From assembly GCF_900215535.1 (NCBI RefSeq), contig NZ_OCND01000001.1:1-64000 (forward strand): a stretch of 64,000 bases of DNA, given 5' to 3'. Of the stretch, positions 40,884 to 58,618 are shown in pieces. Below the pieces are notes generated by a model. It was given only the letters and a program-made list of their open reading frames with translations, did no database searches and had not been told where the DNA came from. How positions within the stretch are numbered: position 1 is the stretch's first letter; each line of letters starts with the position of its first letter. This DNA is from Pseudoxanthomonas wuyuanensis (GTDB lineage: Bacteria > Pseudomonadota > Gammaproteobacteria > Xanthomonadales > Xanthomonadaceae). The position numbers were made by a program, and so were the translations under genes.

Positions 40884-40959
40884 GGGCCGTTAGCTCAGTT
40901 GGTAGAGCAGTTGACTCTTAATCAATAGGTCCAAGGTTCGAATCCTTGACGGCCCACCA
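40884..40959 (+). tRNA. tRNA-Lys (CTT)
   Basis: Acceptor GGGCCGT/ACGGCCC, anticodon CTT in TTGACTCTTAATCAA, encoded CCA. Its last 25 nt are the start of a 135-bp tandem repeat that continues downstream. Confidence 0.97.
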
Positions 40960-41261
40960 AACCCGAAGCGCCCGGCACAGCCGGGCGTTTTCTTTATGCG
41001 GCAGTCAAAGCCACGGGCGCGCTGCGGCGCGTTCGTGGGTCATGGGGGGCTTGGAGCGGGTCGCGGCGCGGTTCGAATCCTTGACGGCCCACCAAACCCG
41101 AAGCGCCCGGCACAGCCGGGCGTTTTCTTTATGCGGCAGTCAAAGCCACGGGCGCGCTGCGGCGCGTTCGTGGGTCATGGGGGGCTTGGAGCGGGTCGCG
41201 GCGCGGTTCGAATCCTTGACGGCCCACCAAACCCGAAGCGCCCGGCACAGCCGGGCGTTTT
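40935..41261 (+). repeat. 135-bp tandem repeat starting in the tRNA-Lys 3' end (2.4 copies)
   Basis: Units begin at 40935, 41070 and 41205, exactly 135 bp apart; the third is partial (about 57 bp). Each begins with GGTTCGAATCCTTGACGGCC plus CACCA (last 25 nt of tRNA-Lys), then a hairpin CGCCCGGC-ACA-GCCGGGCG with T run. The layout resembles the tyrT repeats of E. coli, where each unit carries the tRNA 3' end. Confidence 0.93.
40969..40995 (+). terminator. Terminator of the tRNA cluster, repeated in each 135-bp unit
   Basis: CGCCCGGC-ACA-GCCGGGCG followed by TTTTCTTT. Copies recur at about 41104 and 41239, so read-through transcripts meet three terminators in series. Confidence 0.88.
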
Positions 41262-41442
41262 TTATGGTTCTTTTCACATTCCCGGGGATGTCGGCTTCGG
41301 CGGGAGTCGCCGGTCGTCAGGCTGGGGGTGCTCCGCCCTCCTGACGACGTCGTGTCTTTACGTCGGGCCGCAGGCCATCGTGGCCTGCTCTCCGCACCCC
41401 CAGCCCGCCGACCGTCGCCTTTCGCGAGTTGGTAGATCGTGA
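40996..41442 (+). CDS. Possible repeat-encoded basic peptide (tpr-like position)
   Basis: Because 135 bp is 45 codons, an open frame runs through the repeats: a 45-residue unit starting MRQSKPRARCGAFVGHGG is present twice, rich in Arg and Gly, and begins right after the first terminator. E. coli tpr, a protamine-like peptide, sits in the comparable place. There is no clear ribosome-binding site, so this may be a chance frame. Confidence 0.2.
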   Translation: MRQSKPRARCGAFVGHGGLGAGRGAVRILDGPPNPKRPAQPGVFFMRQSKPRARCGAFVGHGGLGAGRGAVRILDGPPNPKRPAQPGVFYGSFHIPGDVGFGGSRRSSGWGCSALLTTSCLYVGPQAIVACSPHPQPADRRLSRVGRS

Positions 41443-41569
41443 CTTCGGAAAGTCTTTCTTCGTGCGCCGACCTGGCCACCGGCTTCCACATAGACGTCCC
41501 CGCATTTGGGAGAAGGAGCTTTTCTGTGGCGACGGAGTACCGGCGGCGGGTTAGAATGTCGGCGCACCT
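41262..41569. other. Structured intergenic stretch before tRNA-Leu
   Basis: 308 bp with no convincing gene. A perfect 12-bp inverted repeat GGCTGGGGGTGC (41320-41331) / GCACCCCCAGCC (41394-41405) encloses a CAGGCCA-TCG-TGGCCTG hairpin and overlaps a CGTCAG/CTGACG pair, suggesting a folded RNA or a decayed mobile-element end. Confidence 0.5.
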
Positions 41570-41987
<418 letters not shown>

Positions 41988-57345: not shown

Positions 57346-57436
57346 GGAGAGGTGGCAGAGTGGTTGAATGTACCTGACTCGAAATCAGGCATACGTTAAT
57401 AGCGTATCGGGGGTTCGAATCCCCCCCTCTCCGCCA
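57346..57436 (+). tRNA. tRNA-Ser (CGA)
   Basis: Class II tRNA, acceptor GGAGAGG/CCTCTCC, anticodon CGA in CCTGACTCGAAATCAGG, long variable arm, encoded CCA. Confidence 0.97.
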
Positions 57437-57486
57437 GATACGCAAAGGCCCCCGCAAGGGGGCTTTTGCGTATCTGGCGGAGAGGG
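57425..57486 (+). terminator. 29-bp hairpin that takes in the tRNA-Ser 3' end
   Basis: Arms 57425-57453 and 57458-57486 pair along 29 positions (one G-U in RNA) around GCAA. The left arm includes the acceptor 3' strand and CCA of tRNA-Ser, so the hairpin competes with the tRNA acceptor stem. It may terminate or delay maturation. Confidence 0.75.
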
Positions 57487-57910
57487 AGGATCTGACGAGA
57501 ACCCCTGGTTCGACAGAACGGCAGGATTGCCGTTCTGCACGGCGAAGCCGCCCGGCGGGCGAGGCACATGGATGTGCCGAGTGAATCCCCCCGCACCATC
57601 AGCCGAAGACTGATGCGAGAAGCCCCGCAAGGGGGCTCTGCGTATCTGGCGGAGAGGGGGGAGCTGACGAGAACCCCTGGTTCGACGGTTCGACAGAACG
57701 GCAGGATTGCCGTTCTGCACGGCGAAGCCGCCCGGCGGGCGAGGCACATGGATGTGCCGAGTGAATCCCCCCCGCACCATCAGCCGAAGACTGATGCGAG
57801 AAGCCCCGCAAGGGGGCTCTGCGTATCTGGCGGAGAGGGGGGATCTGACGAGAACCCCTGGTTCGACAGAACGGCAGGATTGCCGTTCCGCACGGCGAAG
57901 CGGTCGCGCT
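57471..57910 (+). repeat. Tandem structured repeats after tRNA-Ser (period 172-181 bp)
   Basis: Units start at 57471, 57643 and 57824; the last is partial. Each holds an antisense copy of the tRNA-Ser 3' end (TATCTGGCGGAGAGG) and hairpins AGAACGGCA/TGCCGTTCT, GGCACAT/ATGTGCC and CATCAG/CTGATG. Unit two has a 9-bp internal duplication (GTTCGACGG). Frames that stay open through the repeats are probably not genes. Confidence 0.88.
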
Positions 57911-57922
57911 GCTCGGTTGCCT

Positions 57923-58618
57923 TCAAACCCGCCCGGTCACTGGAATCAGCGCGCCGGTGATCGCACGGGCCGGTTCCGAAAGCAGGAAGGCGATCGTCGC
58001 GGCCAGTTGCTCCGGCTTTACCCAGCGCTCGAATTCGGCCCCCGGCATGTCGGCGCGGTTGGCAGGAGTGTCGATGATGCTGGGCAGCAGGGCATTGACG
58101 GTGACGCCCTTGTCCTTGAGTTCTTCGGCCAGGGCCTCGGTCAGCTTGGCCACGCCGGCCTTGGAGGCGGCGTAGGCGCCCATGCCGGTGCCGGCCTTCA
58201 GCGCGCCGGCCGCGCCGATATTGACGATGCGCCCATCGCCCGAGGCCAGCAACCGCGGCAGGGCCGCCTGACTGGCGGCCACCGCGGTCCGGACATTGAT
58301 CCGGTACATCAGGTCCCAGGTGTCCGGACTGCCGGCCTGCACGGTTTCCCAGCGGAAGGCGCCGGCGATATTGATCAGCGCGTCGATACCGCCGCCCAGC
58401 GCTTGCGCGGCGCGGTCGATTGCGTCGGTGGCCGCGGTCGGGTCGGCCAGGTCGATGCCGCCCAGGCTGGCGGCGGCCGGCGCGTGGGGATCGTCGGGCG
58501 CTGCAGCATGATCGATGGCAACCACGCTGCCGCCGTCCGCGGTCAGGACCCGTATCACCGCACGGCCAAGGAAACCGAAGCCGCCGGTTACCACGATGCG
58601 TTTGCCTTCCAGGTTCAT
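57923..58618 (-). CDS. Short-chain dehydrogenase/reductase family protein
   Basis: 231 residues from the ATG at 58618. Rossmann motif VTGGFGFLGRAV and the YxxxK motif AYAASKAGV are present, but at the usual catalytic Ser position (13 residues before Tyr) there is Ala (NIGAAGALK). The enzyme may be inactive or use a different residue. Isolated gene, convergent with the tRNA-Ser repeats. Confidence 0.88.
   Translation of the reverse strand: MNLEGKRIVVTGGFGFLGRAVIRVLTADGGSVVAIDHAAAPDDPHAPAAASLGGIDLADPTAATDAIDRAAQALGGGIDALINIAGAFRWETVQAGSPDTWDLMYRINVRTAVAASQAALPRLLASGDGRIVNIGAAGALKAGTGMGAYAASKAGVAKLTEALAEELKDKGVTVNALLPSIIDTPANRADMPGAEFERWVKPEQLAATIAFLLSEPARAITGALIPVTGRV

Follow-up and report, generated by a model that had tools for sequence, protein, structure and literature searches.

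Why should the 3′ end of a tRNA gene be repeated, at exact intervals, behind the gene itself? To our knowledge, such tandem repetition of a tRNA 3′ end, known from tyrT, has until now been a curiosity of single genomes. The window analysed here (64,000 nt of Pseudoxanthomonas wuyuanensis) has such an array behind tRNA-Lys(CTT), in a cluster of tRNA-Pro, -Arg, -His, -Lys and -Leu genes that is conserved in most of the genus and is followed by what, judged by eye from the sequence, is presumably a trigger-factor gene. An earlier note had described three copies of a 25-nt tRNA tail at 135-bp spacing, each with a hairpin, and this arrangement was recovered by Tandem Repeats Finder and by a repeat search of the window, the third unit being truncated. 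Tandem Repeats Finder gave a period of 135 at 40935-41261, with 100% matches, no indels, a score of 654 and 2.4 copies, an exact copy number that could reflect assembly, given a source genome in the form of a 33-contig draft of 4.67 Mb. Equivalent arrays, however, occupy the corresponding place in six other genomes, and a tandem repeat of 135 bp without a single mismatch lies far outside what chance would produce. The two 135-nt copies are 100% identical and the third copy is 57 nt long (Table 1).

Each array unit opens with the last 25 nt of tRNA-Lys(CTT) (GGTTCGAATCCTTGACGGCCCACCA), and each tail copy is followed by the GC-rich hairpin GAAGCGCCCGGCACAGCCGGGCGTTTT and a T run. The strict terminator consensus is matched by the third hairpin only; the first and second have the same stem and a shorter T run. 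Both full units terminate in a sequence that we call element E, and the last unit is without it: its tail and terminator are present and the sequence diverges past TTTT. The first E copy ends in GGCGCGG at 41065-41071, with the tail copy TTCGAATCC abutting from 41072, and in the unit frame of Table 1 the final 2 bases of E fall at the beginning of the unit that follows. At tRNA-Lys the outcome is a multiplied operon terminator, with three hairpins in place of one. Past unit 3, positions 41262-41560 (the rest of the spacer in relatives) have partial matches to several other places in the genome, and another repeat may have inserted there. Our reading, in which we have good confidence, is that the Lys array would have arisen when the final 23-25 nt of tRNA-Lys, the terminator and the Lys-Leu spacer were duplicated in tandem, with limits set by E.

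Table 1. Features of the tRNA-Lys(CTT) locus in the window.
Feature	Position	Strand	Basis
tRNA-Lys(CTT), source of the repeated tail	40884..40959	+	ARAGORN; Rfam tRNA, 76.8 bits
Array unit 1: tail (within the tRNA gene), terminator, spacer with E	40935..41069	+	Repeat finding
Unit 1 terminator hairpin	40965..40991	+	Same sequence as the unit 3 site, 135-bp register
Element E, copy 1	41016..41071	+	Pattern matches, junction table
Array unit 2, 100% identical to unit 1	41070..41204	+	Repeat finding
Unit 2 terminator hairpin	41100..41126	+	Same sequence as the unit 3 site, 135-bp register
Element E, copy 2; tail copy abuts from 41207	41151..41206	+	Pattern matches, junction table
Array unit 3, truncated: tail and terminator only	41205..41261	+	Repeat search
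Unit 3 terminator hairpin	41235..41261	+	Terminator consensus match
tRNA-Leu(TAG), downstream neighbour	41570..41655	+	ARAGORN; comparison with relatives

The earlier note had likened the array to the rtT repeats of E. coli tyrT, a kinship that did not survive comparison with RNA models. The Rfam RtT model (RF00391) has no match on the Lys locus at an E-value ≤ 1, and a family model (R1, a covariance model built from the RtT RNAs of 17 relatives) has no match on the Lys arrays; the Lys array as an RtT RNA is ruled out by these two models. Elsewhere in the source genome RF00391 matches with 69.8 bits behind tRNA-Tyr (cut-off 45) and with 40.7 bits behind tRNA-Ser(GGA), and in the family, where RtT matches occur in 17/109 genomes (5 above the cut-off), the tRNA upstream is tRNA-Tyr, either of the two tRNA-Ser or, in one genome, tRNA-Gln. 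Since the RtT models miss the Lys array and match other tRNA loci, the tyrT analogy points to the wrong locus.

The window holds a second array, at 57437-57926 with a period of about 172-181, behind tRNA-Ser(CGA) (57346-57436). R1 matches there at 57474-57601 (83.6 bits), 57646-57782 (82.6 bits) and 57827-57926 (30.3 bits), and on this model the array looks like a tandem array of RtT RNAs; Rfam's RtT model missed it, and Rfam sX4 overlaps its start. In the RtT-like RNAs of the source genome (L053, L095) and of the family (L097-L118), most of which fall below the Rfam cut-off, the outer stem varies with the host tRNA tail. Taken together, the RtT-like RNAs behind Tyr, Ser and Gln tRNAs look like a wider RNA family than tyrT. 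The source genome also has an array of 113 bp × 3.2 at tRNA-Arg(CCG) (L071), which carries about 16 nt of the tRNA 3′ end and is without E.

A survey of close relatives, as the earlier note had proposed, found the repeat present but patchy: the tRNA was matched in 38/38 genus genomes and the array in 4/38, the window included. Across the family, the pattern of a repeated Lys tail matched 9/395 genomes; G248 and G259 were ruled out as arrays, each being two full tRNA-Lys genes. A tRNA-Lys array is known in seven genomes from four genera, with G049, G236 and G319 representing three further genera, and matches in a database scan include Luteimonas marina, Lysobacter sp. M2-1 and a proteobacterial MAG. 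The G022 array has three copies of 140 bp, both later tails ending in ACCC rather than ACCA, while that of G005 has a unit of 151 bp, two changes in the tail copy and an E junction in common with a Pseudoxanthomonas helianthi array. The Lys arrays start at either of two GGs of the tRNA, between AAGG and TTCG or between ATAGG and TCC, the second being used in two genera. Because the start points differ, there were probably at least two events at tRNA-Lys. To this extent, and with the ends of other tRNAs copied as well, the earlier suggestion of a recurring process is borne out.

In G028 the 135-bp array is separated from its tRNA: tRNA-Lys(CTT) is intact at C1:1454877, while a severed 3′ part, together with the array, is found at C1:1497129 (L014, C1:1454877-1497345), as if an element of about 42 kb had integrated into the tRNA gene and left the array on its far side. 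This apparent integration site is the one observation that would suit a reading of the tails as scars of integrative elements using the tRNA-Lys 3′ end as attachment site. The DNA between the tails is host Lys-Leu spacer. In single-copy relatives that have no array (G009, L017; G033, L013) this spacer is homologous to the unit spacer, and its last bases, GGCACGG or GGCGCGG, immediately precede TACAATCG, which resembles a -10 box for tRNA-Leu. The homology implies that the array unit is duplicated host DNA, not a foreign insert. The scar reading, which must also contend with the constant spacing, the presence of E in every full unit and the same pattern at protein genes, is hardly credible; with ancestral intergenic region and no foreign DNA between tRNA and tail, it is largely refuted. 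Matches to plasmid and phage DNA covered about a fifth of the query, the tRNA gene part, and not the array.

Could the units nonetheless yield a processed small RNA carrying the tRNA 3′ end, in the manner of rtT, for which the array is kept? A terminator follows each tail, the RNA form of the unit has a better fold than shuffled sequences (z -3.1), RtT RNAs exist in the source genome behind other tRNAs, and paired changes in the second terminator stem of G236 suggest that such a stem can be kept. Set against these points are the absence of an RtT match on the Lys array with either model, the patchy distribution within the genus, the lack of any promoter-like site found inside the Lys array, and the form that the array shares with arrays at protein genes. 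The earlier note had expected a processed RNA ending in CCA; CCA is lost in the later tails of G022 and the tail is mutated in G005, and the copied tail has no 5′ partner strand for the acceptor stem. We found nothing in support of a processed RNA from the Lys array, and regard an array kept for its RNA as quite unlikely. Given the loss or mutation of CCA in two relatives and the protein-gene arrays of the same form, the tail copies are most likely passengers of the duplication.

The sequence within the unit spacer recurs elsewhere in the source genome. Its 19-mer GGCGCGCTGCGGCGCGTTC is present in 18/38 genus genomes, and the E pattern (the 19-mer plus GGCGCGG) gave 76 matches in 23/38, the reversed control giving 0 in each case. 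E occurs in 46/217 sampled family genomes and 21/54 genera, with 3 control matches in all, and is absent from 141/141 other families of the class sampled. It consists of a hairpin arm GCGCGCnGCGGCGCG, about 28 unconserved bases and GGCGCGG, mostly 52-54 bp in total: 111/125 distinct copies measure 52-54 nt, where the pattern allowed 35-85 nt, and the base following the end is T or C in 93% of these 125. The left hairpin is constant across copies. An end-to-end hairpin was rejected as a general trait, being clear in the window copy (z -3.2 against shuffles) and not in most copies tested (-1.5 to +0.7 in the others). Single E copies lie within pairs of inverted REPs (two classes) or directly before -10-like boxes. 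No GTAG or CGTC tag was found in the conserved positions of E, and tagged REPs flank some single copies. A link between E and REP transposases was sought by co-occurrence and flanks and was not found: PF01797 (RAYT) is present in 35/38 genus genomes without tracking E, and of the RAYT-type genes examined some are flanked by REPs and none by E.

E arrays are not confined to tRNA-Lys(CTT). Their unit, composed of E and the gene 3′ end before it, also copies the end of tRNA-Lys(TTT) in G193, of tRNA-Leu(TAA) in G097, probably of another tRNA in G233, and of many protein genes. Behind one protein gene G001 has 7 copies of 121 bp; other arrays lie behind a gene ending WQKVDGLEVQ, several more protein genes and, in many genera, a gene that we take from its sequence appearance, not from a family search, to be M23 peptidase-like. 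Arrays of one gene across many genera may descend from one old event. In G097 (L238) CCA is not encoded by the full tRNA-Leu(TAA) gene that precedes E but is present at the end of the tail copy that follows, which also differs in its T arm. The earlier idea of a process or function tied to tRNA is thus not upheld, as E repeats protein gene 3′ ends by the same junction rule. Judged by these sequences, array formation is tied to E and is indifferent to whether the gene encodes a tRNA or a protein.

The rule itself is sharp. The terminal GG of E (GGCGCGG) immediately precedes the copied piece in all E arrays seen. At the native site, the start follows GG in 16/19 distinct contexts, hand-picked from arrays met via E or the Lys tail and not a blind sample, against 2.2 expected from local GG frequencies (P ~3e-13). 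The exceptions are two contexts that begin after AG or CG and one with a disrupted source. First seen in the window's genus, the rule also proved to apply to most arrays subsequently met in other genera. It bears directly on the suggestion that the arrays are ordinary tandem duplications via chance short homology, in which E has no role. Such duplications would suit the mere 2-3 bases of homology shared at the junctions and the tRNA-Arg(CCG) tail array of the source genome, which lacks E; they would not account for a right breakpoint at the exact end of E in every E array seen, over many genes and genera, or for GG starts so far above chance, and we consider them very unlikely to be the explanation.

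In a different order of events, E would not be copied along with the gene end but would insert with a long target duplication, giving gene end, E, gene end. The last window unit lacks E, as such insertion would have it, and the arrays of G236 and G043 can be read in that order, with E between two gene ends; elsewhere E sits inside REP pairs, and mobile miniature elements are also found inside REP pairs. Against insertion, the Lys locus of single-copy relatives (L017, L013) has a single E without a second gene end, the arrays of G001, G016 and G022 finish in E and then pass into unrelated sequence, and the implied target duplications would be variable, at 40-120 bp. We think insertion unlikely overall, although it may apply at some loci, and prefer co-duplication of the gene end with E.

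How might E set the limits of such a duplication? E is a family-specific, dispersed sequence and forms the right end of each full unit. We infer that a DNA strand whose 3′ terminus coincides with that end (...GGCGCGG-3′) pairs anew with, or is joined again to, a GG in the gene end upstream; the stretch from that GG to E would then be copied again, and unequal recombination would subsequently alter copy number and keep the copies alike. Template switching or slippage during replication at E has in our estimate about an even chance of being the route, and is favoured over a route in which a single-strand nuclease, for instance a REP transposase or an unknown HUH enzyme, cuts and rejoins the DNA; the latter we rate as possible but less probable. 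The simplest form of re-pairing would be slippage at E in a folded state. A pure hairpin-slippage model is weakened by the fold of E, which in most copies tested is no better than that of shuffles, while an enzyme measuring the distance from hairpin to end would explain a constant length with an unconserved middle. Such an enzyme is counterweighed by RAYT genes that do not track E, by the lack of E beside any RAYT gene examined, and by the absence of a CT site. More doubtful is the further idea that E is a minimal one-ended mobile element, in which an unknown nuclease would recognise the hairpin, cut after GGCGCGG at a fixed distance, pair the end with an upstream GG and re-insert the gene 3′ end plus E. 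If this were true, a rule-based enzyme reaction would capture the tails of tRNA or protein genes and multiply them.

In the literature searched, the sequence of E was not found, and E as a family, with its exact end, its GG rule and its occurrence at the ends of tRNA and protein genes, appears to be undescribed. One bacterial family thus has two unrelated kinds of array, the one made of RtT RNAs downstream of several tRNAs and the other linked to E and including protein gene ends. The E arrays are a warning that a repeated tRNA tail is not always an RNA gene, and their sharp rule, with a fixed right end and a GG on the left, makes the origin of such repeats accessible to experiment.

Several known systems share features with E. 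Like REP, BIME and REPIN sequences, E is short, GC-rich, hairpin-bearing, palindromic, dispersed and intergenic. Large REP clusters are tandemly reiterated along with flanking DNA (PMC3733652), as E is, and single E copies sit inside inverted REP pairs. Unlike those sequences, E has no GTAG tag, and it has a constant length, an unconserved middle and a fixed GGCGCGG end; in its arrays there are gene 3′ ends, beginning behind a GG, and REPs are mostly missing. Like the single-strand transposon ends recognised by HUH enzymes (IS200/IS605, TnpA-REP), E has a subterminal hairpin whose distance from a cut-like end is constant, and the other end has a short target sequence; unlike them, it has no linked enzyme. 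The REP transposases of Stenotrophomonas and E. coli use a CT site (PMC8266576), which is absent at the E junction. With the RtT repeats of E. coli tyrT (RF00391), finally, the Lys array has in common tandem units behind a tRNA gene and a copy of the tRNA 3′ end in each; it differs in that its unit lacks the RtT sequence and structure and carries instead E, which also repeats the ends of protein genes.
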